Shown here: piece by piece, positions 21,580 to 39,269 of the stretch
Layout of the letters: every line of letters begins with the position of its first letter
Position numbering within the stretch: the stretch's first letter is position 1
DNA from: Pseudomonadota bacterium
Lineage (GTDB): Bacteria > Pseudomonadota > Gammaproteobacteria > Steroidobacterales > Steroidobacteraceae
Direction: 5' to 3'
DNA: 39,269 nt
Assembly (NCBI GenBank): GCA_021822385.1
Contig: JAKARC010000023.1
Location: 1 to 39,269, forward strand
Program-made: the position numbers and the translations under genes
The notes under the pieces: generated by a model
Told to the model about the DNA's origin: nothing
Seen by the model: only the letters and a program-made list of their open reading frames with translations
Databases searched by the model: none

Positions 21580-22317
21580 TCAGTCCATCAGACCCAAGCG
21601 AGACCGAATGAGCGCGAGGCGCGGATCAAGATCGATCGCCATCGCGGAGGTCACCTCGAGGGCGCGATCCTCGAAGACGTCTCGGTCCGGAAACGCGGCC
21701 CTCCATTGTGCAATCCTCGCATCCCGCTCGAGAATCAGTCTCTCGATGTCGTCCCGATAGAGCGTGATCATCGCCGAGATCCACCGGTTGAGCGGCCAGG
21801 AGGGCTTTGCCAGATCGATCACGAACCGGTCAAGCATACCGATGGCATCCGGCGCCGCACACCAAGTCTCCGCGGTCACCCATCGGTTCGTGGTGAACAG
21901 TCTCACCGGGCGGCCCTGCCGGTTCATCGAAATCGCGATGAGGTGGAACGCGGGATCGGTGGCTGCGTCATCTGCCCGCGTTTCCGGCAGAGCCGCCGGA
22001 CGGAATGCCTTCGGTATTCCCTTGGGCCGCAGGAAGGTATGAAAATGCCCGTAATCGTTCCACTCGCCACGCGTCTGAGGATGCGCGTGAAAGTAATATT
22101 GCGCGTGTGTCTCCGGGTCGTAAACGTCGTTCTCCGGGTAGTGTTCGAACTCGATGAACTCGCGGCCATCGAGCGCTTCGCTGACGAGGTTGCTGTCGCT
22201 TTTCTCCAAGACGCGGATGCAGTTGACCACCTCCGCCGCGGCTTGCGCGATTCTCTCGAGCCCGGCGTCAGTTTCGGCGGGGCTTTCAGGCAGGCCGTGC
22301 TCTCGAGGTGGGATCAC
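21580..22317 (-). CDS. Conserved hypothetical protein, His-rich centre (possibly DUF6969)
   Basis: 245 residues, soluble, no signal peptide. Residues 58-95 hold a dense set of His and aromatic residues: EHY, H71, H77, H79, then DYGH91-FH93. Such a cluster could bind metal. The rest is helical with 'LFTTNRWVTAETWCAAPDAI' and 'RWISAMITLYRDDIERLI'. I do not know a function; from memory it may be the family catalogued as DUF6969, unverified. Its ATG overlaps the nrsF stop by 4 bases, so it is made with NrsF and probably belongs to the same SigF-type response. Confidence 0.7.
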   Translation of the reverse strand: MIPPREHGLPESPAETDAGLERIAQAAAEVVNCIRVLEKSDSNLVSEALDGREFIEFEHYPENDVYDPETHAQYYFHAHPQTRGEWNDYGHFHTFLRPKGIPKAFRPAALPETRADDAATDPAFHLIAISMNRQGRPVRLFTTNRWVTAETWCAAPDAIGMLDRFVIDLAKPSWPLNRWISAMITLYRDDIERLILERDARIAQWRAAFPDRDVFEDRALEVTSAMAIDLDPRLALIRSRLGLMD

Positions 22318-22994
22318 GGAATTTCATTCCGCCCGCGTGCGAGACGCGGGCCGACGCAAGCGCCGAGCAACGTCAAGCCAACCACGGTGCCCCCCTGCCA
22401 GATGAGCGCCATCAGGCTGGAATCGGCCCGGTGAAAAAATTGCAGTCCCACCTCGCCGAGCGCCGCGGTGGCGAGCGCGCCGAGCGCCGCAGTCGAGATG
22501 GGCGCAAGCGGTACCCCGCGGGAAATCATCCGGGCAATGACGATTGCGGGAATCAGACCCACCACGACCACCCCGGGCAGACAGCGCCAGTCGGACTGCA
22601 GTACGAGACTGTCCGGACCCAGCGTGTGCGAGGCCGTGAAGCACCCGTGGCCGAGCGTTCCCAGCCACACCGCGAGCAGCACCAGCGGCACGATGCGCTC
22701 CCACTTGCGCCCGCGTCCCGGGATGCCCGCCCCGAGTGCCGCGTGGGCCGCCGTGAGGGCCGTTGCCGCCGCTGCCGCCTGCTCCATCAGCCATCGCCCA
22801 TCCTCCAACCGCGCGGGCAGATCGGGCCGCAGCCCCATCGCGAGGACAACGAATGCCATCCACGGCAGAGAGATCGCCACCCAGGCCGCAACACGCCGTG
22901 CGGGTGAGCGCAGAGGTCGCACAGGATGTATCCGGGACGCCAGGATATCGATCAGCTCTTCTGTCGGGAGCGCGGTCACTCCTCGATTCTCCAT
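22314..22994 (-). CDS. nrsF: NrsF-type anti-sigma factor (DUF1109)
   Basis: 226 residues with six hydrophobic segments (about 36-54, 71-88, 101-115, 139-157, 166-182, 198-213) after a cytosolic 30-residue head (TEELIDILASRIHPVRPL). The layout and motifs 'WMAFVVLAMGLRPDL', 'GHGCFTASHTLG' and 'SDWRCLPGVVVVGLIPA' fit the NrsF family. Cysteines at 118 and 138 are in the family's conserved places. In Caulobacter, NrsF holds the ECF factor SigF and senses metal or oxidative stress via its cysteines. The usual sigF partner is not beside this copy; a His-rich protein gene is coupled to it instead. A SigF-like promoter (23056-23081) precedes it, which suggests autoregulation. Confidence 0.85.
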   Translation of the reverse strand: MENRGVTALPTEELIDILASRIHPVRPLRSPARRVAAWVAISLPWMAFVVLAMGLRPDLPARLEDGRWLMEQAAAAATALTAAHAALGAGIPGRGRKWERIVPLVLLAVWLGTLGHGCFTASHTLGPDSLVLQSDWRCLPGVVVVGLIPAIVIARMISRGVPLAPISTAALGALATAALGEVGLQFFHRADSSLMALIWQGGTVVGLTLLGACVGPRLARGRNEIP

Positions 22995-23055: not shown

Positions 23056-23081
23056 TTCGTTCCAAGGTAACAAAAGGTTTC
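23056..23081 (-). promoter_or_regulatory. SigF-type ECF promoter of nrsF
   Basis: On the - strand: GAAACC (23076-23081), a 16-bp spacer, CGAA (23056-23059). The element begins GAAACCTTTT, close to the GTAACCTTTT of the two other sites in this window (23118 and 33882). The Caulobacter SigF consensus is GTAACC-N16-CGAA, from memory. It lies about 60 bases ahead of the nrsF ATG. Confidence 0.62.
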
Positions 23082-23117
23082 GCTGCTCCGAAACCGGTCC
23101 CGTGTCACGGCACACCC

Positions 23118-23142
23118 GTAACCTTTTCACCCCCCGACCGAA
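23118..23142 (+). promoter_or_regulatory. SigF-type ECF promoter of the NPC-repeat peptide gene
   Basis: GTAACC (23118-23123), a 15-bp spacer, CGAA (23139-23142). It shares GTAACCTTTT at the left and CGAATC at the right with the bufA promoter at 33882. It is 36 bases ahead of the peptide ATG and divergent from the nrsF promoter. The spacer is one base shorter than at bufA. Confidence 0.72.
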
Positions 23143-23177
23143 TCCTTAAGATAATCACCCCGCCCCCGGAGATCCGC

Positions 23178-23471
23178 ATGAAGTCCTTTAGCAAAGCCGC
23201 ACTCACGCTCGGCGCCGCCATTGCGATCGGTGGTGCCCTAGCCACCCCCGTTTTCGCCAAAGGCGCGGGGAACGTAAATCCGTGCAAGCCGGCCCCCACG
23301 CGCAGTACCTGCTCACCCAAGAGCCCCTGCGGCGCCAAGAAAGCCGCTGCGGCGAAGAATCCATGCGCAGCGGCCAAGAATCCTTGTGCCGCCAAACCGC
23401 AGAACCCGTGTGCGGCCAAGCCGCAAAACCCGTGCGCCGCCAAGAATCCGTGTTCTGCTAAACCCCATTGA
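23178..23471 (+). CDS. Secreted Cys-rich peptide with NPC repeats (candidate metallophore)
   Basis: 97 residues from ATG 23178 (GGAG 7 nt upstream). Signal peptide 1-27 (LATPVFA end). The mature ~70 residues contain eight Cys (36, 45, 51, 63, 70, 78, 86, 92). Six of them are in the motif N-P-C and one in S-P-C, spaced by A/K/P/Q-rich linkers of 3-5 residues (NPCAAK, NPCAAKPQ). No aromatic or acidic residues are seen in the repeat part. The architecture recalls bufferin and oxazolone RiPP precursors, which have other Cys motifs (EGKCG, or four spaced Cys in DUF2282). The gene sits behind a SigF-like promoter and ahead of a TonB receptor. Metal binding and modification by the MNIO BufB (34401) are inferences. 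No established name is known to me. Confidence 0.85.
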   Translation: MKSFSKAALTLGAAIAIGGALATPVFAKGAGNVNPCKPAPTRSTCSPKSPCGAKKAAAAKNPCAAAKNPCAAKPQNPCAAKPQNPCAAKNPCSAKPH

Positions 23472-23688
23472 CGGCCACCACCCCCTGAAGGGTCCTGCCG
23501 TCCGGAGGCGGGACCGCATCGCTTGGCGGCGACGCCGTTGCGACCCGTACGCGCGGCACCTGGATGCCCCGTCCCCTGCCGCATCGGACCGAAAACGGCG
23601 CCGCCGCCAACCCCGGCTAAAGAAGAGCCCCCGCCTCAAAGGAAAGCCGACCCTACCCGTGCGTCAGATCGAACCGAGTCGGGGGGCA

Positions 23689-26076
23689 ATGCCCCCTCTG
23701 TCACCGCCCAGTCGCGGTGACTTTCTCAAACGGATCACCCCATACCCGACACGCCCTCGTGTGTGCTCTTCGACTCTTGCCGCACTGACCCTCGTCGCGC
23801 TGATGTTGAGTCACTGGGTTGGGGCGGAAGCGGTCAGCGCACCGAAAGACCCCAGAGCGTTGCGCACCGTCATCGTCACCGCGCAGGAGCAGCGGGAACC
23901 CGTCGCCAAAGTCCCGGAGAGCATCACGGTTTTCTCATCCGAGACGCTGTCCGCACTCGACATCCACTCCTTTGACGGCTATGCGACCCAGACGCCCAAC
24001 CTCTCGTTCGTATACGGAGCGGGGTCGACTGGAATCTCAAACGCCCGGACCGTCGCAATCCGGGGCATTACGGGGCAGAATCTCTTCGGCACATCGGGTG
24101 CGACGGGATTTTATATCGATAACACACCCCTTCCCGAATCCATCAATCCGCGCATCGTCGATGTCAAGCGAATCGAAATCCTCAAAGGGCCGCAGGGGAC
24201 ACTCTTTGGCGAAAGCTCCCTCGGCGGCACCGTGCGCATCATCACCGAGGAGCCGGATCTCAGGCGCGACGAACTTAGTTACACCGCTGATCTCGGCGTC
24301 ACTTCAGGCGGGGGCAGTGCCGATGGCGGCGCGAGTCTTATTGAGAATATCGCGCTCGTTCCGGGGCGCCTCGCGACCCGAATCGTGCTCTATGGCAACC
24401 ATGATGCCGGGTACCTGACCCGCACCTATCCCGCGCCCTCGAGCCCTGCGGCCAGCAACCCCTTTCTTGCGGCACCGCGCACGAGCGTGGGCGATCAGGG
24501 CGCCAAGACTACCTACGGCGGATCGATTACCACCCGCTTGCACATCAATTCGGCACTTGGGGTGCGCCTACGTGTCATGGCGCAGGACACACACGACAAG
24601 GGATTTCCGGCAACCTTCGCACCGCTACCGGCCTTCAAGCCCGTCTACACGCTCAATCGAGCCTTCAACGTCCAGCCTGGCGCCACCGACGCGTGGGTGC
24701 TCCCGTCGCTCGAGATTCACTATCGGCACGGCAAGGTGCGGATCGTCTCCGCCACCAGCTATTTCTACCACCACAATCGCGATATCGAGGACTCGACCTA
24801 CGGCACTCAGCAGATTCTGCAGAGCTATTACGGCGTGACATCGCTTCCCCCCCAGCCGTTCCTCTGGGATCAAGAGAATTACCAAAATCAGTTTACGGAA
24901 GAGCTGCGCCTGTCATTCAAGGGATTTCTCGGCGTGAGCGGCACGATCGGCGCGTTCTTTGCGCGCAGCCGCTCGGCGCTGTCCGTTCCGCCCGAGTACG
25001 CGCGAGGGCTGGTCGCCGCGACGGTCAACAACACGGTTGTCGGCCCATGGCCGAACGACCTCCTTTGGACCGATTACAACCCGGCAATGCAGCGGGATAC
25101 GGCACTCTTCGGGCAGATCTATGTGCCGTTGGCGAGAAACCTCAAGCTGACCTTGGGCGCGCGACAGTACTGGCTTCACCAAACCTCTGACTTTACCGCC
25201 AACGGCTTCAACAACTTCGGCCTCACCCCGAGCGACCCGCAGTCGAGCCGCCAGTCCGGCATCAATCCGAAGGTCGCGCTCTCCTACCAGATCACCCGAG
25301 GCGCGATGGTCTACGCGTCCGCTTCCGAGGGCTTTCGGGCCGGCGCCGCCCAGACCTATCTGCCCTTCTGCGCGCTGCCGAACCTGCCCGTCAATGACAT
25401 CACGCACCTGAAATCCGATACGCTCTGGAGCTACGAAGTCGGCGGCAAAGCCGAGGTCCCTGACACCAGCCTTCTCCTCTCCGCGGCCGCCTTCCACATC
25501 GACTGGCGCAATCTCCAGCAGCAGGTCGCCCTGCCCTGCGAAGCCATCTTCGACATCAACGGCCGGCGGGCACAAATCAATGGCGGGGAACTCGAGCTCG
25601 ACGGGCACGTTGTCCGCTCCCTCGCGTTGCGGGCCGGCGTGGGCTACGAGAAAACCGACATCACCGAGCCGGGCGCTCTGGCGATTGTCGGGATCGCACC
25701 GGGTTCGCCCGTTCTCGGCACGCCCGCCTGGACGGCGAGCCTCGCGGGCGTGTATACCCGTGCCATCTCCGCCACCCTCGAGGGCTTCATCGAGGCGGAT
25801 GCGAGCTACACCGGGGATAGCCGGGCGCTGCTCAATGGCGCCAACGACACCTTCGCCACTCGAGGGTCATACGTGCTGGTCGATCTGCGGTTCGGGGTGC
25901 GCCGCGGGAGAACATCAGTTTCCCTCAACGTGCGCAATGCCACCAATGCCAAGCCCAATCTCGGCGACATCGGCTACATCGGCTATGGGCAGTACACCGC
26001 CACCGGAACGATCATCCCACAGGTCGCCACTCTGCGCCCCCTGACGGTTCTGCTTCAATACCGTCATGATTTTTGA
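23689..26076 (+). CDS. TonB-dependent outer-membrane receptor
   Basis: ATG 23689 (GGGGGG at 23681-23686) gives 795 residues. An N-terminal export signal is near 30-48 (TLAALTLVALMLSHWVGAEA). Plug domain about 60-190, with 'TVIVTAQEQREPVAKVPESITVFS' (read in parts), 'VAIRGI', 'GFYIDNTPL' and 'RIEILKGPQGTLFGESSLGGTVRII'. A 22-strand barrel follows, ending in 'LLQYRHDF' with the terminal Phe. The pattern is that of the Caulobacterales/sphingomonad-like receptors (e.g. 'GFRAGAAQ'). These import metal chelates, vitamins or other large ligands. It starts 217 bases after the NPC-repeat peptide on the same strand, with no clear promoter between, so uptake of the metal-loaded peptide or of some chelate is a reasonable guess. 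Confidence 0.92.
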   Translation: MPPLSPPSRGDFLKRITPYPTRPRVCSSTLAALTLVALMLSHWVGAEAVSAPKDPRALRTVIVTAQEQREPVAKVPESITVFSSETLSALDIHSFDGYATQTPNLSFVYGAGSTGISNARTVAIRGITGQNLFGTSGATGFYIDNTPLPESINPRIVDVKRIEILKGPQGTLFGESSLGGTVRIITEEPDLRRDELSYTADLGVTSGGGSADGGASLIENIALVPGRLATRIVLYGNHDAGYLTRTYPAPSSPAASNPFLAAPRTSVGDQGAKTTYGGSITTRLHINSALGVRLRVMAQDTHDKGFPATFAPLPAFKPVYTLNRAFNVQPGATDAWVLPSLEIHYRHGKVRIVSATSYFYHHNRDIEDSTYGTQQILQSYYGVTSLPPQPFLWDQENYQNQFTEELRLSFKGFLGVSGTIGAFFARSRSALSVPPEYARGLVAATVNNTVVGPWPNDLLWTDYNPAMQRDTALFGQIYVPLARNLKLTLGARQYWLHQTSDFTANGFNNFGLTPSDPQSSRQSGINPKVALSYQITRGAMVYASASEGFRAGAAQTYLPFCALPNLPVNDITHLKSDTLWSYEVGGKAEVPDTSLLLSAAAFHIDWRNLQQQVALPCEAIFDINGRRAQINGGELELDGHVVRSLALRAGVGYEKTDITEPGALAIVGIAPGSPVLGTPAWTASLAGVYTRAISATLEGFIEADASYTGDSRALLNGANDTFATRGSYVLVDLRFGVRRGRTSVSLNVRNATNAKPNLGDIGYIGYGQYTATGTIIPQVATLRPLTVLLQYRHDF

Positions 26077-26193: not shown

Positions 26194-26787
26194 TCAAGTG
26201 AACACACCTCGTTGATAGCGGTGCCAGTCCACGCCGTCATCGATGTCCGCAAGTGTACGCAGCAGCGCCACGCGCTGGTCCCGCAAATTGGCCCGCGTAT
26301 CCGCGAGCGCGTGCGCGCTCGACCATCTTACGTTCCGGAATGGATCGACGAAGCGCAGGCCGCGCCGTAAGCCGATGAGCCAGTAGCCGCCATCGCGCGC
26401 GGGTCCGAGAACGGCGTCGTGGGAGCCCAACGCGCGGAATGCGGCTGCGACGTCCACAGAGCGGATCCCCGGGATATCGCTGCCAATGATGACCGCCGGG
26501 CCCGGCGGCAGGCGGCGCATCACGGAGGCCATCCGACGCCCGAGACCGCCGGTGCCTTGGGCCAACGTCGGCAATCCCTGCGCGCCGGGATGGAGGTGGT
26601 TGGGCGTAAAGGCCAACCACGTCTTCCAGCGCGAATCGCGTCCCAGGTCGCGCAACAGCCGCGCCCGCATGACGTATTGGAAGCGGAAGGCGGCGAACTC
26701 ACCGACGTCTCGCGCCAGCCGTCGCTTGCCCTGCCCCACACGGGGCGTGCGCGCGAAGATCACGAGATGGCGGGCGGCACCGGTCAT
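26194..26787 (-). CDS. TIGR04282/DUF2064-type glycosyltransferase
   Basis: ATG 26787 overlaps the stop of the GT2 gene by ATGA and gives 197 residues. Nucleotidyltransferase-like fold: 'LVIFARTPRVGQGKRRLA' at the N-terminus, 'GGLGRRMASVM', 'VIIGSDIPGI' and 'GPARDGGYWLIGL', the family hallmark. Such proteins are named rSAM/selenodomain-associated transferase 1 and, in some gene clusters, arsenosugar biosynthesis glycosyltransferase. No ArsM or ArsS is in this window, so an arsenosugar role is not supported here. It is the last gene of the seven-gene operon. Confidence 0.85.
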   Translation of the reverse strand: MTGAARHLVIFARTPRVGQGKRRLARDVGEFAAFRFQYVMRARLLRDLGRDSRWKTWLAFTPNHLHPGAQGLPTLAQGTGGLGRRMASVMRRLPPGPAVIIGSDIPGIRSVDVAAAFRALGSHDAVLGPARDGGYWLIGLRRGLRFVDPFRNVRWSSAHALADTRANLRDQRVALLRTLADIDDGVDWHRYQRGVFT

Positions 26788-27503
26788 CGGTCGTAGAGCC
26801 TTGCGATCCACCGCGGCGAAACGCCCAGGAAATACAGCGTAAGACAGCTGAGATTTCGCGCGCTGCGGCGTCGCCAGCCGTCGCGGCGCCACCGATCGGC
26901 CGACGTGCGTGCAACCGAGTCCAACACCGTCAGGTGCCGACGGCCGATGCGGCGCACGAGATCAACGTCTTCCATCAGCGGCCAGGCGCGAAAGCCCCCG
27001 AGCGCCCCATACAGCTCCCGATGAATGAGCAGTCCCTGATCGCCATAGGCCAGTCCGAGATGGCGCACACGCCAGGCCACCCGCCGCTCGAGGCGGCGGG
27101 CCGCGGGACTCGGGTCATCGAGGCCGAAGCGGAACGTCGCGGCACGTCTGCAATCTACGGAATGTGCGATGAAATCACCGGCCGCGCGGCGCCAATCGCC
27201 GCTGAGGACCGTGTCCGCGTGTAGAAACAACAGCCAACGGCTTACAGCGGCAGCGGCCCCCGCGCGGAGCTGGATGCCACGTCCACGCTCTGACGTCATG
27301 ATCCGGGCGCCGAGCTCACGTCCAATCACCACGGTCTCGTCGGCCGAGCCGCCATCGATCGTGATGGTTTCGCGCACACCACGGCATGCCGCCAGCGCAG
27401 CCGGCAAGTAGCGTGCCGCATTCAACGTCGGAATGATGACCGACACGTCGAGCACAGTGTCGATGGGACGTGGATCTCGCAGCACAGACTCAGGGCAGGG
27501 CAA
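26784..27503 (-). CDS. Family 2 glycosyltransferase (TIGR04283 type)
   Basis: 239 residues from ATG 27503, overlapping the flavoprotein gene by 14 bases; a later GTG start (VLDVSVIIP) is possible. GT-A fold: 'VSVIIPTLNAARYLPAAL', 'TITIDGGSADETV', 'ERGRGIQLRAGAAAA', 'LFLHADTVL' (metal-binding acidic motif) and 'YGDQGLLIHRELYGALGGF'. These match the rSAM/selenodomain-associated transferase 2 group. It pairs with the TIGR04282 gene that follows, as is usual. The sugar acceptor is unknown. Confidence 0.87.
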   Translation of the reverse strand: MPCPESVLRDPRPIDTVLDVSVIIPTLNAARYLPAALAACRGVRETITIDGGSADETVVIGRELGARIMTSERGRGIQLRAGAAAAVSRWLLFLHADTVLSGDWRRAAGDFIAHSVDCRRAATFRFGLDDPSPAARRLERRVAWRVRHLGLAYGDQGLLIHRELYGALGGFRAWPLMEDVDLVRRIGRRHLTVLDSVARTSADRWRRDGWRRRSARNLSCLTLYFLGVSPRWIARLYDR

Positions 27504-28908
27504 GAAGCAGGCGAACGAGGCGCTTGGGCCAGGGACTGAAGAGCTTCGGGGCGTAGAACGCGCTTGCGACGGTCTTTGAGATTTCTCCGAGCGTTGGATA
27601 CGGGAAAATGACGCCGGTGAGCGCGCTCAGCCTCAGCCTTCGCGTGATCGCAAGCCCCCAAAGTCCGATGAGCTCGCCGGCATGCGGACCGACGATCCCG
27701 GCCCCAAGAACGGTTCCTCGCTTGTCGATCACCACCTTGATGGAGCCTGCGCTCCGGCGTTCGGCCCGGGCGCGATCGTTCTCGCCCAGATCCGCTTTCA
27801 CCACCTGCACGGAGGCTCCGAATCGCTCGCGGGCCTGCTGTTCGGTGAGCCCCACCTGCGCCAGTTCCGGATCGGAATACGTCACCCACGGCAGCGCACG
27901 GTAATCGACCTTCGCCGGCAACCGGAAGAGCGCATTGCGGATCAGAATCCCGGCCTGATAGCCGGCCGTATGGGTGAACTGGGGCCGCCCGAGGATATCG
28001 CCGAGCGCGTAGACGCGTTTGTTCGTCGTTCGCAGCCGCGCATCGACCGTGATGCCGCGGGGTGTATGTGCGATCCCGGCGCGCTCGAGCCCGAGGCCCG
28101 CAAGCCGTGGCTGACGGCCCGCGGCAACCAGAAGATGCGTGCCGAGAGTCTCTCCATCGGCACCGTATCTGACCACGATGCCCCCTCGGGCGCGCGCAAC
28201 GCCCGTCAATTCCGTGTTCTCGTGGAGCGAGATTCCCGCCCCAACGAGCCGCTCGCGCAAGATCCCGACGAGTTCCGGCTCATCCTGCGGCAGCAGCCGT
28301 CCGCGCTGCAACACCGTCACTGCGCTGCCGAGGCGGCGGAACGCTTGCGCCATCTCCACGCCGATCGGTCCTCCACCGACAATGAGCAGGTGCTCGGGAC
28401 GCTCGTTCAACGAGAAGAGCGTTTCATTGGTCAAGACGGGAACGTCCTCGATCCCCTGGACCGGCGGAATGATGGCCGAGGAGCCGGCGGCGATGACGAA
28501 CCGTCGTGCTCGGACCCGGACTCCTTCGCCACTGACCTCATCGCGCCCGGTGAATGCGGCTGGCGCACGGATGACGCGCACACCTAATCTCTCTAGACGC
28601 TCGGCGGAATCGTGGGGCGCGATCTGCGCGATTACATCGTGCACATGCGCCATCACTGCGGGAAAATCGACCTGCGCCGAGCCCGCATGAATGCCGAATT
28701 GTCCTGCGTCCGCGATCGTCTGTGCGGCATGCGCCGCCGCGAGCAGCGCCTTCGAGGGGACACAGCCGTAATTGAGGCAGTCCCCGCCCATCTCGCCCTT
28801 CTCGAACAGGATGGTGCGCGCACCGAGCTGCGCGGCACCCACGGCCACGGAAAGTCCGGCAGAGCCGGCGCCGATGACACAGATGTCGCACTCGAGTGAA
28901 TTCGTCAT
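27490..28908 (-). CDS. MerA/lipoamide dehydrogenase-like flavoprotein without HMA domain
   Basis: 472 residues. FAD fold 'DICVIGAGSAGLSVAVGA' (8-25), redox pair GGDC44-LNYG-C49-VPSK, NAD(P) fold 'LLIVGGGPIGVEMAQAF', second FAD motif 'RVYALGDI'. It lacks the N-terminal HMA domain and the C-terminal Cys pair of true MerA. The usual His-x-His-Pro of lipoamide dehydrogenase reads 'FPYPTLGEISK', as in MerA-like proteins. So it reduces some disulfide or metal-thiol substrate, but not Hg(II) by the classical path. Coupled by ATGA to the ABC ATPase gene before it and overlapping the GT2 gene. The C-terminal tail is basic and hydrophobic (LVRLLLALP) and might touch the membrane. Confidence 0.87.
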   Translation of the reverse strand: MTNSLECDICVIGAGSAGLSVAVGAAQLGARTILFEKGEMGGDCLNYGCVPSKALLAAAHAAQTIADAGQFGIHAGSAQVDFPAVMAHVHDVIAQIAPHDSAERLERLGVRVIRAPAAFTGRDEVSGEGVRVRARRFVIAAGSSAIIPPVQGIEDVPVLTNETLFSLNERPEHLLIVGGGPIGVEMAQAFRRLGSAVTVLQRGRLLPQDEPELVGILRERLVGAGISLHENTELTGVARARGGIVVRYGADGETLGTHLLVAAGRQPRLAGLGLERAGIAHTPRGITVDARLRTTNKRVYALGDILGRPQFTHTAGYQAGILIRNALFRLPAKVDYRALPWVTYSDPELAQVGLTEQQARERFGASVQVVKADLGENDRARAERRSAGSIKVVIDKRGTVLGAGIVGPHAGELIGLWGLAITRRLRLSALTGVIFPYPTLGEISKTVASAFYAPKLFSPWPKRLVRLLLALP

Positions 28909-29660
28909 GCTTTGATCCTGTCGGTCGGGGGTGGCCAGACGGTCTGCGAAGCGACTTCGATCGCCTCGTGAATCGCGCGACGCGGATCCAATCCGTGAAT
29001 CACCGGCATGCCCTCAGGTGCGTGCAGGAGTTCGAGCACCGGGCCGTGCGCCGCTTCGGCGTCTGCCACATCGTGGGTCACCATCAACACCGGCAGGCCT
29101 GCAGTCTTGGCATGCTCGAACACGAAGCGGCGGAAGTCGGCACGCATCGCGGCATCGAGCTTATTGAAGGGCTCATCGAGCAGCAGCACCTCGGGCTCGG
29201 CAAGCAGTAGCCGCAGCAGTGCCACGCGGGCACGCTGTCCGCCGGAGAGCGTCGCGGGGTCGCGACGGGCGAATCCCGCAAGCCCCGCGTCGCGCAGCGC
29301 GGCATCGATCCGCGCCTCGCGCGCGCCACGGCTGCGTATTGAGGGCGCCAGCCCAAAAGCCAGGTTCTCCCCGACCGACAGGTGCGGAAACAGCAGATCA
29401 TCCTGAAACAAGATCCCAATGCGTCGGCGCTCGGGCGGCAGAACCGTCACCTCCCGCTCGCCGATCCAAACCCTGCCCGTCACGCGAAACACGGGCGCGA
29501 CGGTGCCACCGAGAACGCTGAGCAGGGTGGACTTGCCCGATCCACTCGGACCCATCAGCGTCAGAACCTCGCCGGGGCTGACCGCAACGCTGAAGGGCGG
29601 TATCAGCATGCGGCCCTCGAGGGCGATCGAGACCTGCTCGAGGCGCAGCGGGCCGCTCAT
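28905..29660 (-). CDS. ABC transporter ATPase, YnjD-like
   Basis: ATG 29660 overlaps the permease stop by ATGA and gives 251 residues. Walker A GPSGSGKS (37-44), 'GILFQDDLLFPHLSVGENLAFG' Q-loop region (read in parts), signature LSGGQRAR, Walker B VLLLDEPF, H-loop THD. The whole ABC set matches the YnjBCD group (COG4134/4135/4136), an importer class with unknown substrate, by order and by the fused permease. A C-terminal extension of about 30 residues (GLDPRRAIHEAIEVASQ) follows. Confidence 0.88.
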   Translation of the reverse strand: MSGPLRLEQVSIALEGRMLIPPFSVAVSPGEVLTLMGPSGSGKSTLLSVLGGTVAPVFRVTGRVWIGEREVTVLPPERRRIGILFQDDLLFPHLSVGENLAFGLAPSIRSRGAREARIDAALRDAGLAGFARRDPATLSGGQRARVALLRLLLAEPEVLLLDEPFNKLDAAMRADFRRFVFEHAKTAGLPVLMVTHDVADAEAAHGPVLELLHAPEGMPVIHGLDPRRAIHEAIEVASQTVWPPPTDRIKA

Positions 29661-31402
29661 GAGCGTCCCCCGAGCGCTTGCCTGCGGAATCGGTTCCGCC
29701 CCGACACCCCGAGCGCGATCCCATAGACCGCGAGCGGTATGAGTGCTTGCAGCAGCCCGAAGACGCCGGTGAACCGCCGGTCGCCGCCGCTCGCGAGCGT
29801 CACGGCCTCCGTGGTCAGGGTAACGACACGCCCGGCGCCCGCGAATACCGTGGGCAGGTACTGATCCACACTCACGGCCACACCCACCGCCGCGGCGATC
29901 AAGACGGGGCGCAGCAAGAGGGGCAGCTTGATCCTGAAGAACACCCGCCGCGGTTGGGCACCGAGGCTGAGCGCGGTGCGTGCGTAGCGCATATCGAGCG
30001 ATCGCCAGGGATCGGCAAGGGAGAGAAAGACGTAGGGCAGCACGAACAGAAGATGCGACCCGATCACGGCAAGGAGCGAACCGTCGAGATGGAACACCGT
30101 GAGCAGCACCTGCATTCCGAAGAGAAACGCAATCTGGGGCACGAGCAGCGGGACGTAGAGAAGCCACAGTGCTCGCGAGCTGGCCGCAACGCCCTGGCGT
30201 TGCTCGTTCTCCAGGCACGCCAGGACGAGCAGCAGCGCCAGGACACTCGCCACCAAGGCCACCACCAGCGTCGTCTCGAGGGGCCAAAGAATCGTCCCGA
30301 GCTCACCGGTCCACGCCCGAGCGCTCCAGTGGGCCGGCAGGACCTGGGGGAAGCGCCAACCGGCCGCGAACGACCAAAGTGCCAGATCGGCCAGGGATGC
30401 CACCCCCAAGCCGGCCAGCCCTACCACAACAGCCGCGGCGAGCCAGGCAACGGGTTCGAGCGAAGTACCGCGAGCGCCCCGGGCGATCCATCGCCGGCCG
30501 AGCTGAGCCACGACCCGCTCACCCCCACGCCACAGCGCGATGCTCGCCAGCACCATCAGGAGCTGCAACAGTGCAGCGGCCGCCGCCGGGAAATACATCC
30601 GGATGTCGGGAGAGGTGAACCAGCGCAGCGCGAGCACGCTGAGCGTCGGTGGATTGCTCGGGCCCAGAATGAGCGCCATGTCCACCACCGAGAGCGCGTA
30701 GGCGAGCACCGCGTAGATCGGCAACCGGACTTGCCGATAAACCTGCGGCAGGACCAGTTTCAGCCACGCAACCGTGCGGCCATAGCCGAGCGCCGCGGCG
30801 GCTTCTACGTGACGCGCCGCCGGCACTTGCCCGAGCGCGGTGATCGTCATCAAGAGGAGGTACGGCACCTCTTTGACCAGCAACCCGAGAGTGAGCGCGA
30901 TGCCGTACGGATCCTGCACCGTGGCAATGTCCGGCGGCTGATGCCAGCCGGTCAGCCAAGGCGAGAGCAGCCTCACGATCCAGCCACTCGGGGCGATCAG
31001 AAAGCCGACACCGATGGCCATTGCCGCGTGCGGCGCGGCGAGGATTGGCGCCATCACAGCGCGGCCGGCTCGGCCCGGCTCGCGTCCGTGCACCAGCGCG
31101 CAAAAGCCAAAGACGAGGATGACCGACAACGCGGTCGCACTGAACCCGGTCACGAGCGTAAGGGCAATGGCATCGCGGATCCCGGGCTGGGAGAAAAGCG
31201 TCACCCACGGCGCGAGGCTCACGGTCCGGCCGCCGATCGCCGGCAACCACCCGAAGGCGGGGAGCACCGTGCCGAGGAGCCCCGCCACGATGGGCACCAG
31301 AAACAGCGCCACGGTGAGTCGTGGCGCCTGCCGCAGCCAGTATGGCGAGTGCGCCACGTCTCGCGCGGACACCGCTCTCGACTCGAGTGCCGTGCGGGGC
31401 AT
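29657..31402 (-). CDS. Fused two-domain ABC permease, YnjC-like
   Basis: ATG 31402 shares one base with the preceding stop (TGATG) and gives 581 residues. Two binding-protein-dependent permease domains in one chain, about 12 membrane helices. Each half has an EAA-type loop: 'EAAAALGYGRTVAWLKLVLPQVYRQ' (read in parts) in the first and 'ARTALSLGAQPRRVFFRIKLPLLL' in the second. The fusion is typical of the YnjC/FbpB/ThiP group of importers. It works with the binding protein (31402-32610) and the ATPase (28905-29660). Confidence 0.88.
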   Translation of the reverse strand: MPRTALESRAVSARDVAHSPYWLRQAPRLTVALFLVPIVAGLLGTVLPAFGWLPAIGGRTVSLAPWVTLFSQPGIRDAIALTLVTGFSATALSVILVFGFCALVHGREPGRAGRAVMAPILAAPHAAMAIGVGFLIAPSGWIVRLLSPWLTGWHQPPDIATVQDPYGIALTLGLLVKEVPYLLLMTITALGQVPAARHVEAAAALGYGRTVAWLKLVLPQVYRQVRLPIYAVLAYALSVVDMALILGPSNPPTLSVLALRWFTSPDIRMYFPAAAAALLQLLMVLASIALWRGGERVVAQLGRRWIARGARGTSLEPVAWLAAAVVVGLAGLGVASLADLALWSFAAGWRFPQVLPAHWSARAWTGELGTILWPLETTLVVALVASVLALLLVLACLENEQRQGVAASSRALWLLYVPLLVPQIAFLFGMQVLLTVFHLDGSLLAVIGSHLLFVLPYVFLSLADPWRSLDMRYARTALSLGAQPRRVFFRIKLPLLLRPVLIAAAVGVAVSVDQYLPTVFAGAGRVVTLTTEAVTLASGGDRRFTGVFGLLQALIPLAVYGIALGVSGRNRFRRQALGGRS

Positions 31403-32610
31403 CACGGCGTATATCGGCGCGCCCAGGCTTGCGCCAGGCGTCGGGCCCACGAGGGGTGCGGCTCGGGGAGCACGTGTTGAAGCGCCGAGCTCGGCGGCAT
31501 CCACGGACTCTTGGGCAGAGCCGTAAATAGCGCATGCTGGGCGGCCGTCAGTTTAGCAAGATTGAGCACGGTCGGCCCACCCCAGTAGCGGACGTTCCCG
31601 GCGCGCGCCTGAGCCGCGGGTGAGAGCAGAAAGTTGGCGACCACCATGGCGCCTGCCTTGTGCGGCGAGTTGTAGGGAATCGCGACGAAGCTCGTATTGC
31701 CGATCGTGCCATGCGCCAGAACGAAGGTGCGGACGGTCTTGGGCAGGAGTCCCGCTTCGATGTCGGCGACAGCCTCGGCAGGATTGAAGGACGGCATCAG
31801 GTCGATCTCCCCGTCCTCCAGCAGCTCGCGCTCGGCCGGTCCGCTTGCTGGAAATTCGCGGCCATGGCGCCAGAGATACGGCCGCAGCTGATCGTACCAG
31901 GCCCAGAGCGGCGCCGTCGCCTTCGCGAAATTGACTTCCCTGACAGGACGCTGCAGCACCGCGGGATCCGGGGTCAGCGCGTAGAGCGCCTGCTCGAGAA
32001 ACGCGACGCCGAGAAAATTCTGCACTTGAGGAAAGGTGAATCGACCGGGATGGCGTCGCGCCCATGCGGGGAAGGCGCGGATGTCGTGGGGCACGTGTTT
32101 GACATAGGCGGAGTCGTAGAGGAAGACGAGTTGGGCCTTGCGCCAGGGCGACTCGAAGCCGTCGACCGGCACAGTAAAGTCATACAAGTTCGATCGGTCA
32201 CGGGTGTCGACGAGCGCGTCGTTCGGTAGCCGCTGGGTAAATGGCCCATAGAGAAGCCCGCGCCGCTTCAGCGCATGGAAATTCGGACCATTGATCCAGA
32301 TGAGATCGACGGTTCCGTCCGTATTTTGACCCGCCGCCTTCTCGGCGATCACCTGCGCCACCGCTTCGGAGGTGTCCTGAAGCGGCACCTGCCGCAGGGT
32401 GATGTCGCAGCAGGCGGCGACCTGTCGTCCGACCCAGGCGATGAAGGCATTGACCTTCTGGTCACCGGCCCACGCGTCAAAATATACCGTCTGACCGCGC
32501 GCCTGCGCCAAGACAGCTTTCCACGGCATTGCAGCGGCGGCCGCACGCGCCGGGGCGATCGTCTCCAACGCGACCGCAACGGCAGCCGCCCACACGGGCG
32601 TGAGGCGCAT
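31402..32610 (-). CDS. ABC substrate-binding protein, YnjB-like
   Basis: 402 residues from ATG 32610 (a GTG at 32613 would give a 4-base overlap). Signal peptide about 1-25 (ARA end). Periplasmic-binding fold with 'GQTVYFDAWAGDQKVNAFIAWV', 'DGTVDLIWINGPNFHALKRRGLLYGPF' (read in parts), and 'FPQVQNFLGVAFLEQAL'. These match the COG4134 (YnjB) group. Two adjacent Cys (about 68-69, AACCDI) are unusual. The ligand is unknown for the family; thiamin-like or metal-complex ligands are sometimes suggested but not shown. It lies directly behind the radical SAM gene. Confidence 0.85.
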   Translation of the reverse strand: MRLTPVWAAAVAVALETIAPARAAAAAMPWKAVLAQARGQTVYFDAWAGDQKVNAFIAWVGRQVAACCDITLRQVPLQDTSEAVAQVIAEKAAGQNTDGTVDLIWINGPNFHALKRRGLLYGPFTQRLPNDALVDTRDRSNLYDFTVPVDGFESPWRKAQLVFLYDSAYVKHVPHDIRAFPAWARRHPGRFTFPQVQNFLGVAFLEQALYALTPDPAVLQRPVREVNFAKATAPLWAWYDQLRPYLWRHGREFPASGPAERELLEDGEIDLMPSFNPAEAVADIEAGLLPKTVRTFVLAHGTIGNTSFVAIPYNSPHKAGAMVVANFLLSPAAQARAGNVRYWGGPTVLNLAKLTAAQHALFTALPKSPWMPPSSALQHVLPEPHPSWARRLAQAWARRYTP

Positions 32611-33755
32611 CACGCGACGCAGGCCCTCGCGGTCGCGCGCCGCAGGCGTGCCGCCTCAATCACCGGGCCGAGCACCGCCTCGTGGAACCGATCGCAACCG
32701 ATGCAGAGGTTGGCATACGGCTCCCCCTTCGGTGTGACGGTATGGGACTCAGCGATGAAGCGTTCCTCGTTCCATCCGTAGGCCAGGCCCATGCGCTCAG
32801 GATGCCCCGCGCAGATCGCCTGGTACGCGGGCTCCTCGGCGAGAGAATCCAGGATCGTGATCAAATCGTCCTCCAGCAGATTGCCGATCGGCAGACGCGT
32901 CTTGATGCAGCAGGGAAACACGTTGCCGCTCGGGTCGATGGACACCTCCGAGCCGCTGTAACGGTGCTCGAGGAAACCGAGCCCACCCGACCAGCGGTTG
33001 CAGAAGTTCTCCGCCAGAGTCGCCGTGGACAGGCCATTCTCCCAGGCCCGCCCCCTCGGCCAGAGCGCCCCAATCCACGCATCGGGGGTGGCCCCGAAGA
33101 AATGGTAATAGGGTCCCGGTGGGCGCTGCGCCCTTGTCTCGGGAACGACCGGCTCCTCGGCGGGCTTGAGCCCGTGCGCTTCAAAAAGCCGTGTCAACCG
33201 CTCCTTGAATGCAGCCTGCCGAGCAGCGCTTTTCATGCCGGAATGAAACTCGTCAATCCCCGAGACCGAGATCGTCGAGACTCCGCGCGCAAGGAGATCG
33301 TCGACGATGCTGTCCGTGAGCAGGTCACCTGTCGTCTGGACGATGAGATCGACGCCGCCCGCCCCGGCATAGCGCGTCCGAATGCGCTCCATCGCCGGAT
33401 ACAGCACCCGGGTGCGGACCGGATCGATGAGCACTTCGCCGCCCGAGAGGATGATGCGACCCCGCCGCTGCGGTAGCTTTCCATCCGGCGCCGGCCGTGC
33501 GCGGTCAAGGTAGGTCATGCGCTCGGGCAGGCGCTCGATGATCCGCGGGGAATTCGCGACCGCCTCGCCGATGACCGCGTCCAGCGCTGCGCGTACATAC
33601 GGGCGAAAGCGCGGCTCATAGCAATGGGGGCATTTGCGGTGGCATGCCCAGGACAGCACGTAGTAGATGGATTCCACGGGTTTATAACGACTCCCATGCG
33701 ATGAGTTCCCAGATGCCGTTCGGCTTCCGAGCACAAGGACCGGCGATCCCCGCAC
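32610..33755 (-). CDS. Radical SAM protein with SPASM-like Cys-rich C-terminus
   Basis: 381 residues from ATG 33755; a GTG at 33677 would remove 26 residues of uncharacteristic N-terminus and is equally likely. Radical SAM cluster motif C38-HRK-C42-PH-C45 after 'YYVLSWA'. The SAM-binding motif is 'LSGGEVL' (103-109). C-terminal Cys at 252, 282, 283, 315, 351 and 354, in '[16 protein letters not shown]' and '[13 protein letters not shown]', look like the auxiliary cluster region of SPASM/twitch enzymes that act on peptides. It is not ArsS, which has a different motif (CNQSC type) and a DUF3641 tail. Its substrate is unknown. First gene of the seven-gene operon and divergent from the bufferin operon. 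Confidence 0.86.
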
Positions 33756-33985
33756 TATGTTGCGCGCCCGCCGGCGTGTGCACGAGCCCGGCCGTCGCCC
33801 ACAGCCGCCTGCTTGACATTCCGCCGCGCAGAATGGCGCGCCGCCGGCCCTCCTTCCGGTCTGGCCCGAGCAAGCCGCGGCGTAACCTTTTGGCCTCTCA
33901 GCACGAATCTACCTACGGGACGGGGAATACTCTGGATCGCTCAGGTCCACCGGTCCCTGAGATCAACTTACGAGGAGAAATCGCG
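33678..33985. other. Divergent intergenic region between radical SAM and bufA
   Basis: About 230-310 bases, depending on the radical SAM start. Contains the SigF-like promoter at 33882-33907 and, nearer bufA, GAGGAG (33972-33977). A TTGACA at 33814-33819 is not followed by a fitting -10. No promoter for the radical SAM operon could be identified with confidence. Confidence 0.55.
33882..33907 (+). promoter_or_regulatory. SigF-type ECF promoter of the bufferin operon
   Basis: GTAACC (33882-33887), 16-bp spacer, CGAA (33904-33907) followed by TC. This fits the Caulobacter SigF consensus exactly and shares the GTAACCTTTT and CGAATC ends with the site at 23118. It lies about 80 bases ahead of bufA. 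Confidence 0.8.
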
Positions 33986-34354
33986 ATGTCCAAAAGAACC
34001 GCATCTTTGGCCGTGGCCGGTGCCCTGGCCACCGCCATCACCGCCCTCAGCGGGCCAGTAGCGACTGCCGGGGGCATGCATATGAGCATGAAGCAGATGA
34101 TGGCAAGACGAGCCGAGACCATGAAGGAGCTCGAGACCGGGAAATTCGTCAGGTGCTGGGGTGTGGCACGCGCCGGCCACAACGACTGTTATGCCGGACC
34201 CGGCACGACCTGCGCCGGCACGGCCGCCCGCAACTACCAGGGCAATGCCTTCATGCTCGTGCCCACGGGGACGTGCACCGCCATCCGCACGCCGTACGTC
34301 ACCATCCTTCACGGCCACGGAAGCCTGAGCAAGATCACGGAGAGCGGAAGCTGA
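33986..34354 (+). CDS. bufA: Bufferin precursor BufA (DUF2282)
   Basis: ATG 33986 with GAGGAG 8 nt upstream gives 122 residues. Signal peptide about 1-28 (GPVATA). The DUF2282 core 'KFVRC57[11 protein letters not shown]68...C76AGTA...VPTGTC97' has the four conserved Cys of BufA1-type bufferins, which bind copper after MNIO modification. The N-terminal mature part adds a Met/His run, MHMSMKQMM (31-39), another plausible Cu(I) ligand set. After C97 there is an uncommon ~25-residue tail with HGHG. The gene is followed by bufB after 46 bases. Confidence 0.88.
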
Positions 34355-34400: not shown

Positions 34401-35303
34401 ATGTCAATTCTCCGAGCCACCTCTCCCCACCGAACGCACCACGAGATCCCCGCCCGGGCCGGTGTCGGGCTCAAAGCCCCGCACTACCGGACGGTTCTCG
34501 AGACGCGCACGGATGTCGGGTTCTTCGAGGTGCATGCGGAGAACTACATGGGTGCCGGCGGGCCGCCGCATCGGTATCTGACCGAAATCCGCGCACGGTA
34601 TCCCCTATCCCTGCACGGCGTGGGATTGTCGATCGGCGCGGATCGCCCCCTCGATCGGAATCACCTGCGGCGGCTCGCCGAGCTCATCGGGCGCTATGAG
34701 CCGGGGCTTTTCTCGGAACATCTGGCGTGGTCCTCGCATGGGGAGCACTTCTTCAACGACTTGCTCCCCGTGCCTTACACCCGGCAGACCCTGCATCGTG
34801 TGTGTGAGCATATCGACCAGGTTCAGGAGTCTCTCGGACGGCAGATGCTGCTCGAGAACCCCTCCACCTACGTCGCCTTTGCCGAGAGCACCTTTTGGGA
34901 AGTCGACTTCATCGCCGAGATCGCACGCCGGACCGGCTGCGGCCTGCTGCTCGATGTCAACAACGTGTATGTGGCGTGCACGAACCAGCATTGGGATGCG
35001 GCGCGATACATCGATGAGTTCCCGATGGCGCATGTGCGCCAGATCCACCTGGCCGGCCACGCCACGGATGAGGATGCGCAGGGACGAGCTTTACTCATCG
35101 ACTCGCACGATCGGCTCGTTGATGGGGCCGTCTGGGACCTCTACGTCCGGGCCATCGGGACGCTCGGACCCGTCCCAACGCTGATCGAGTGGGATCAGAA
35201 CCTGCCCCCATGGGGGGAATTGCATGCTGAGGCCCAGCGGGCCGAGTCGATCCTGTCGGGCGAGCGCCAGTGCGAGGAGACGCTTCGTGCGGCCGCTGGC
35301 TGA
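34401..35303 (+). CDS. bufB: MNIO enzyme BufB (DUF692)
   Basis: 300 residues. TIM-barrel-type DUF692: 'RAGVGLKAPHY', 'FFEVHAENYMG' (ligand E/N region), 'SLHGVGLSIG' (H72), 'SEHLAWS' (E106-H107), 'LLENPSTYV' (E152-N153), 'LLLDVNNVYV' (D185, N187-N188), 'IHLAGH' (H216, H220), 'LIEWDQNLP' (E263, D265). These are the iron-site residues of multinuclear non-haem iron-dependent oxidative enzymes, so it should be active. In described systems it oxidises Cys of the BufA precursor to a heterocycle with BufC's help. ATG 34401 is used; the bufC start lies within its 3' end. Confidence 0.93.
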   Translation: MSILRATSPHRTHHEIPARAGVGLKAPHYRTVLETRTDVGFFEVHAENYMGAGGPPHRYLTEIRARYPLSLHGVGLSIGADRPLDRNHLRRLAELIGRYEPGLFSEHLAWSSHGEHFFNDLLPVPYTRQTLHRVCEHIDQVQESLGRQMLLENPSTYVAFAESTFWEVDFIAEIARRTGCGLLLDVNNVYVACTNQHWDAARYIDEFPMAHVRQIHLAGHATDEDAQGRALLIDSHDRLVDGAVWDLYVRAIGTLGPVPTLIEWDQNLPPWGELHAEAQRAESILSGERQCEETLRAAAG

Positions 35304-38853: not shown

Positions 38854-39269
38854 TCAGGCGAGCTTCAGGACCGGTGGAGGCTTGGGGATTTTCAGCGATT
38901 TCAAGCGCTTGAGCGCCTCCGGGGAGGGCTCGGTGACCTGCCAGACCGTCCCGTTGGGGCTCGACAATTGAGCCAATTTGATCCGCTTGAGATCGTCGCG
39001 GATGTTGCGCCAGGTGTCAGCGCAGGCCTGCTCGGCGAGGCGCTCGAGGAGAAGCGACAGCACGGTGAGGGCGACGTGAGCGTGGATGCGGTGCGGCGCC
39101 CAATGGTAGACGGGACGCAGCTTCAGGCCACTCTTCAGCTGTCGCCAGGCGAGCTCCACGCGCTGCAGTTGCTTGTAGCCGAGGGCCAGGTCGGCGGCAC
39201 CCAAGGTATCGTCGTTGCTGTGCACGACGAACTTGCCGTCGAGCTTGGAGAGCGCCTCGATGTTGGCCT
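38854..39269 (-). CDS. IS1634/IS4-group transposase, C-terminal part (cut by window edge)
   Basis: The minus frame is open from the window end (ANIEALSKLDGKFVVHSNDD...) to TGA at 38854-38856. The sequence 'ALGYKQLQRVELAWRQLKSGLKLRPVYHW' (read in parts) holds the Glu-containing Y-x2-R-x3-E-x6-K pattern of IS4-group DDE transposases. 'HRIHAHVALTVLSLLLERLAE' follows. The N-terminal part lies outside the window. The first in-frame start inside the window is only a GTG at 39225, an internal codon. Confidence 0.87.
   Translation of the reverse strand, partial: ANIEALSKLDGKFVVHSNDDTLGAADLALGYKQLQRVELAWRQLKSGLKLRPVYHWAPHRIHAHVALTVLSLLLERLAEQACADTWRNIRDDLKRIKLAQLSSPNGTVWQVTEPSPEALKRLKSLKIPKPPPVLKLA

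Follow-up and report, generated by a model that had tools for sequence, protein, structure and literature searches.

A 39,269-nucleotide stretch of DNA from a Steroidobacteraceae bacterium (contig JAKARC010000023.1 of assembly GCA_021822385.1; hereafter, the window) encodes a 97-residue peptide whose cysteines recur within Asn-Pro-Cys (NPC) motifs. We find that genes for such cysteine-repeat peptides are repeatedly accompanied by a gene for a DUF6969 protein (PF22308), and we are confident that the two form a well-supported gene pair. An earlier note on this DNA had singled out the peptide together with an adjacent TonB-dependent receptor; that observation is real, but the recurrent partner is DUF6969, not the receptor. 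The pairing suggests a new two-part system for metals or sulfur, in which DUF6969 plausibly modifies the peptide. Our literature search, thin on subscription journals, returned no paper mentioning DUF6969, PF22308 or NPCAAK, and NPC is absent from the main text of PMC12452194 in so far as that text was accessible. The features at the centre of the analysis are as follows.

23178..23471, forward strand: NPC-repeat cysteine peptide, 97 amino acids plus stop (open reading frame, cysteine count and a copy in the related genome G006).
23178..23261, forward strand: apparent Sec signal peptide, approximately residues 1–28 (read by eye from the sequence).
21580..22317, reverse strand: DUF6969 protein, which we propose to be the peptide's maturase or chaperone (PF22308, E = 7.2e-81, 271 bits against a cut-off of 27, full-length member).

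The association emerged from searches in both directions. Stretches matching a DNA pattern for NPCAAKNPC in a species genome collection numbered at least 119, mostly from Pseudomonadota and also from Rokubacteria, Nitrospinota, Tectomicrobia, Acidobacteria and Cyanobacteria (taxa as named in the records). When the 119 NPC loci listed were searched with the proteins of the window, DUF6969 was matched at 53, the TonB receptor and nrsF at 1 each, and bufA, bufB, bufC and doxX at 1 each; the single TonB and nrsF matches belong to a close relative (L084). An NPC open reading frame (ORF) of at least 60 codons was present at 51 of the 53 DUF6969-containing loci, the nearest one lying on the same strand as DUF6969 in 47 of the 51; the open-frame distance to it is no more than 300 bases in 40 cases and 4 bases in 5. 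The reverse search, started from DUF6969 (PF22308) and made independently of NPC, found the family in 3 of 60 relatives, 30 of 369 genomes of the class and 20 of 398 of the phylum, with the genome of the window counted each time, and in none of 14 control genomes. Within the genus, 2 of 37 genomes carry DUF6969, and these are exactly the two with the peptide.

With the G000/G006 pair left out, we examined 50 DUF6969 loci (1 from the relatives, 29 from the class and 20 from the phylum). A strict automatic criterion, a dense xPC ORF within 1.5 kb of DUF6969, was positive at 31 of the 50 loci as against 1 of 30 control loci (Fisher 6e-8), the controls (L002–L032 minus L004) being weak peptide matches rather than random places; a far-window control yielded 1 match (L225) in 12 windows, too small a set to rely on. 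Counted by eye, with other cysteine repeats and larger flanks included, a cysteine-repeat gene lies near DUF6969 at 43 of the 50 loci and in 34 of 40 genera, a tally that reflects our own judgement. It is directly upstream on the same strand at 34 of the 50 (among them L173 and L175, with only two SPC motifs each); the remaining positives are NPC-cytochromes (L157, L245 and L247), a gene directly downstream (L242) and genes 0.7–1.4 kb away (L243, L244, L246, L249 and L250). A looser automatic criterion (64 of 82 regions, some places counted twice) was abandoned because 6 of 26 distant windows were positive and L155, L157 and L183 were spurious. At the level of whole genomes, in the class sample of 369, the NPCAAKNPC DNA pattern occurs in 5 of the 30 that have DUF6969 and in none of the remaining 339 (p = 2.6e-6; 3e-5 without the window's own genome).

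The peptide itself has the composition that the earlier note described: the ORF and its eight cysteines, six of them in NPC and one in SPC, were reproduced, the eighth standing in TC, and the product is apparently of the secreted type, its N terminus reading by eye as a basic start, a hydrophobic core and an AxA-like site. The [NS]PC motifs lie at residues 34, 49, 61, 68, 76, 84 and 90, residue 49 being the SPC. In 200,000 shuffles of the mature peptide the number of [NS]PC motifs never exceeded 4, so the seven observed are far above what the peptide's own composition would produce. Several different synonymous forms encode the [NS]PC triplets, and the copy in G006, the only close relative found (91% identity), differs by 18 codon changes that are synonymous and 9 that are not (dN/dS approximately 0.13), which together indicate a real, selected coding sequence. 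The [NS]PC motifs from residue 49 onward are unchanged in G006, and the first NPC is APC there. When the peptide was searched against 60 genomes of relatives, 51 gave a match with E no higher than 1; the best was G006 at 4.4e-48, and the next, at 0.004 and 36% identity, we regarded as low-complexity noise. The peptide has no named Pfam family (E up to 0.1) or NCBIfam family and matches no metallothionein family in either collection; its apparent signal peptide also speaks against a cytosolic metallothionein. The earlier contention that its cysteine arrangement differs from those of DUF2282 bufferins and EGKCG peptides is borne out, as it contains neither DUF2282 (Pfam, E up to 0.1) nor an EGKCG motif. 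A hairpin after the gene (approximately 23491–23515) was set aside for want of a T-run and for its poor conservation in G006.

Beyond this copy, the repeats are found in varied protein contexts. A rough sorting by regular expressions of ORFs with at least three NPC motifs, which 5 of the 119 loci listed lack, gave 78 small proteins lacking a heme motif, 40 that resemble cytochrome c, 21 that resemble P460 and 9 others. In the one example of each kind that was scanned, NPC repeats flank a SoxA–TsdA-type cytochrome domain (L042; PF21342, E = 5e-9) or are fused to a cytochrome P460 domain (L041, an alphaproteobacterial relative of the peptide). Repeat types vary by lineage and include NPCAAK, NPCAPSARGG, SPCGL, KPCAAK, TCAA, GCCG, GCCAAE, CAACAAG and CGAK. 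A second peptide type (L172–L182, L184 and L259) carries an N-terminal anchor like GSALGLAALAVAIDHTRHRLPEP followed by SPCGL/SPCSL repeats, and several of its loci have a YeeE-like gene before and rhodanese-like genes after the peptide. FGE/SUMF1-like genes are present at 17 of the 119 NPC loci listed (PF03781 for L127:179–976). In our best explanation, the NPC peptide of the window belongs to a large group of putatively exported, low-complexity cysteine-repeat peptides.

DUF6969, which by eye has no apparent signal peptide, is strongly conserved at a few positions. Across 51 members (that of the window and those of the 50 loci), H77, H79, G90, H91, H93, H125, N144 and V147 are invariant, with E88 in 50 and H89 in 49; the five invariant histidines (HxH...GHxH...H) most likely bind metal. 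We propose that DUF6969, as a cytosolic, metal-dependent protein, would act on the cysteine-repeat peptide before export, either by chemically modifying the repeated cysteines, in the manner of a ribosomally synthesized and post-translationally modified peptide and as MNIO enzymes do on bufferins, or by loading or protecting them, and that the mature peptide would serve in the periplasm as a ligand with many thiols. DUF6969 would thus work like the bufferin/MNIO pair, to which it is unrelated, as a maturase or chaperone of exported cysteine-repeat peptides. The peptide, its promoter match with bufA, its pairing with DUF6969 and the conserved residues are what the sequences show; the enzyme activity, the metal ligand, export and the direction of action are what we infer here, and we give the explanation as a whole, a peptide group with a specific DUF6969 partner acting before export, an equal chance of being right or wrong. 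A broader version, in which the DUF6969 proteins would constitute a new, metal-dependent class of peptide maturases across Pseudomonadota, unrelated to MNIO and modifying the cysteines of diverse exported precursors (NPC, SPC, KPC, GCCAAE and CGAK) into periplasmic carriers of copper or sulfane sulfur, is offered tentatively, as slightly more likely wrong than right.

The likely ligand in this genome is suggested by gene control and by the neighbouring genes, listed here.

23118..23142, forward strand: sigma-F-type promoter, GTAACC-N15-CGAA, ahead of the peptide gene (exact match; G006 preserves the two boxes and differs in the spacer).
33882..33907, forward strand: matching sigma-F-type promoter of bufA (strict-pattern match).
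23056..23081, reverse strand: possible sigma-F-like promoter of nrsF–DUF6969, GAAACC-N16-CGAA (−35 box with a single mismatch; G006 preserves both boxes and differs in part of the spacer).
22314..22994, reverse strand: nrsF, anti-sigma-F-type regulator, ahead of DUF6969 (PF06532, E = 3.4e-22).
From GTG 23659 or ATG 23689 to 26076, forward strand: TonB-dependent receptor, co-located (PF00593, E = 1e-35; PF07715, E = 3e-11).
33986..34354, forward strand: bufA, a DUF2282 bufferin (PF10048, E = 7.2e-20 on 33965–34351; start read from the sequence).
34401..35303, forward strand: bufB, an MNIO (NF050167, E = 3.3e-118).

In the accessible part of the Caulobacter study, the sigma-F consensus is GTAACC-N16-CGAA and NrsF is the negative regulator of that factor (PMC3511200). 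Taken alone, a loose scan of the window does not exceed chance significantly (2 matches at no more than one mismatch, 1.35 expected). A strict pattern, GTAACCTTTT-N10..13-CGAA, has exactly two sites in the 2.6-Mb genome (85% complete), one before the peptide gene and one before bufA, which upholds the likeness between these promoters that had been noted within the window. G006 has four such sites, before its NPC peptide, two bufA genes and, read by eye, a DoxX-like ORF; the reversed control gave 0 in both genomes. A predicted sigma-F-type promoter is therefore common to the NPC peptide and bufA in two species, with a spacer before the peptide gene of 15 nucleotides here and 16 in G006. A tandem GTAACA site on the forward strand (23067–23092) was discarded since G006 does not keep it. 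As the peptide and probably nrsF–DUF6969 have promoters of the type found at the bufferin operon, buffering of a soft metal, probably copper, is the likeliest role here. Bufferin genes also adjoin DUF6969 or an NPC-cytochrome in two other lineages (L224 of G195, and L068 of Gallionella). At L224:5791–8291 an NPC peptide, DUF6969 and bufA-like and bufB-like genes stand in a row.

Several observations weigh against the proposed role of DUF6969 or against copper as the ligand. The window protein has all five invariant histidines but reads D88–Y89, as does that of G006, where most members have glutamate and histidine, so its activity could differ; and DUF6969 yielded no homologue in the PDB (best E = 0.19). 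No cysteine-repeat gene was found at 7 of the 50 DUF6969 loci (L155, L163, L164, L183, L241, L248 and L251), and DUF6969 was not found within the examined stretch at 66 of the 119 NPC loci listed, which may mean that a nearby DUF6969 is dispensable for some NPC proteins. The arrangement in the window also departs from the usual one: nrsF separates the peptide and DUF6969 genes, which point away from each other. Sigma-F control is not a general feature of NPC peptides, the motif standing before 2 of the 123 NPC ORFs from other places, that of the G006 relative included, compared with 1 of 123 for the reversed motif, and sulfur-gene neighbours in other genomes point to a ligand other than copper. 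The alternatives below address separate questions, and their probabilities overlap.

The first takes the peptide to be an unmodified thiol peptide of the periplasm, either metallothionein-like or sacrificial, and DUF6969 to be a metal chaperone or sensor that makes no covalent change. Highly variable repeats that keep only their cysteines would suit a bulk ligand, and the invariant histidines would suit metal transfer; the tight order of peptide and DUF6969 genes, by comparison, resembles that of precursor–maturase pairs, and a free ligand would require no such regular partner. We regard this alternative as unlikely, if still to be reckoned with.

A second alternative concerns the cargo: the peptides might be periplasmic carriers of sulfane sulfur (persulfide or thiosulfonate) between SoxA/TsdA-type cytochromes, rhodanese and YeeE/SoxT importers, with DUF6969 preparing or reading them. 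Besides the repeats that flank a SoxA–TsdA-type cytochrome, homologues of such cytochromes occur at 30 of 53 NPC loci with DUF6969 and 15 of 66 without, and YeeE/YedE-like genes at 16 of 53 and 4 of 66, comparisons that are confounded by locus length and phylogeny and serve as hints only. YeeE-like genes lie in 8 and rhodanese-like genes in 7 of 20 DUF6969 regions; the order at L173 and L175 is YeeE, SPC peptide, DUF6969, rhodanese (PF00581 for L173), and sulfur import by SoxT/TsuA is described in the accessible part of PMC11582611. Another common neighbour elsewhere is an unnamed protein without a Pfam match that we read by eye as cupredoxin-like. Against a sulfur role here, no such sulfur genes were seen beside the copy in the window, its promoter partner is a bufferin and the peptide has no Pfam match. 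Sigma-F-type control and the bufferin links thus speak for copper, and the neighbouring cytochrome, YeeE and rhodanese genes for sulfane sulfur; we hold the sulfur-carrier explanation to be rather doubtful.

The earlier note had proposed that the peptide is a secreted metallophore, perhaps matured in trans by BufB and re-imported by the TonB receptor. The receptor does follow the peptide gene, with nrsF divergent, as the domain matches listed above confirm; it is 88% identical and syntenic in G006, where the gene order is kept, and the promoter in common with bufA and the copper TonB transporter CrtA, described in the accessible part of PMC12914433, would fit. Whereas the NPC repeats are conserved widely, the TonB neighbour is not: receptor homologues occur at one of the 53 NPC loci that contain DUF6969, namely that of the close relative, at none of the 66 that do not, and in 1 of 20 DUF6969 regions. 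Because a query with the window receptor could miss distant receptors, we added a Pfam scan of long ORFs, namely those of approximately 600 amino acids or more plus that of L084. Of the 118 long ORFs at NPC loci it covered 57, and one of these, from the relative (L084), has a plug domain; of the 42 in 30 larger DUF6969 regions it covered 25, two of which have the domain (one at L236). With this coverage, cut-off receptors could be missed. Neither homology nor Pfam makes the receptor a general partner. Among proteins of solved structure it resembles receptors for siderophores, heme and bacteriocins, mainly in the plug. Maturation by BufB fares no better as a general route. The genome has one MNIO, bufB, approximately 11 kb from the peptide gene and with its own bufA; BufB-like genes occur at 1 of the 119 NPC loci listed and in 1 of 20 DUF6969 regions. 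MNIO is present in 34 and absent from 16 of 50 DUF6969 genomes (of 51 such genomes, G037 left out), and in the class sample in 23 of 30 DUF6969 genomes (none in 7) as against 199 of 339 others, a difference that is not significant (p = 0.08). G184, a single contig and 100% complete, encodes NPC proteins and DUF6969 and no MNIO. We therefore reject MNIO as the general maturase of NPC peptides, though BufB may yet act on the peptide of this genome, and judge the metallophore model highly improbable.

The most far-fetched reading makes the peptide a structural protein of the envelope held together by disulfides, a role discussed for the spore protein CdeC, whose 6-NPC repeat and self-assembly appear in the accessible part of PMC7677010; there is no spore context here, and cytochrome fusion and co-regulation with bufA would go unexplained.

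The remaining genes of the window describe the setting of the locus. The DUF6969 gene overlaps the end of nrsF by 4 bp, forming an apparent nrsF–DUF6969 operon that the earlier note had not mentioned, and nrsF has one copy in the genome. No sigma factor for it was seen in the window; two extracytoplasmic function (ECF) candidates lie on other contigs, and C75:31226, which carries sigma-70 domains, is a candidate for sigma-F. BufC and DoxX were likewise recognized in the window by family search. Between the peptide locus and bufABC, a reverse-strand block (26194–33755), syntenic in G006, contains genes for a TIGR04283 glycosyltransferase, DUF2064, a pyridine nucleotide oxidoreductase, an ABC transporter with a binding protein and a radical SAM/SPASM protein. 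A cytochrome P460 gene lies at 757–1347 on the forward strand (PF16694, E = 1.8e-9). The contig also encodes a flavin reductase with an HMA domain and, read by eye, a CopA-like ATPase and MerR-type regulators; transposase-like frames at both ends (1–540 and 38854–39267) were likewise read by eye. With such ends and its metal genes, the contig is possibly a mobile metal-resistance island.

Our analysis ties DUF6969, a family without a named function in Pfam, to a defined set of probable substrates, the cysteine-repeat peptides, an association that we add here and that, counted by eye, holds in 34 of the 40 genera sampled. Should DUF6969 turn out to modify these cysteines, exported cysteine peptides would have a further family of enzymes besides MNIO; if it serves sulfur transfer, the peptides would be candidate periplasmic sulfur carriers beside SoxA/TsdA cytochromes and YeeE importers. 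Among known systems, BufABC (bufferin 1/MNIO–DUF2063) likewise combines a small exported cysteine peptide with a cytosolic partner under NrsF/sigma-F-type control in this genome, but the NPC peptide has no DUF2282 and no adjacent MNIO or DUF2063, and DUF6969 has no match to PF05114. EGKCG oxazolin and HvfA-type thiooxazole peptides carry repeated cysteine motifs in a low-complexity exported peptide; the motifs here are NPC and SPC rather than EGKCG, and no MNIO gene stands beside the peptide. CdeC of the exosporium has the six NPC repeats in common with the peptide (accessible part of PMC7677010) but is a spore protein of a Gram-positive. Finally, the NPC-flanked SoxA–TsdA-type cytochromes and the YeeE and rhodanese neighbours of other genomes recall the SoxYZ/SoxA–TsdA sulfur systems, from which the copy in the window differs in that no such genes were seen beside it and that the peptide has no Pfam match.

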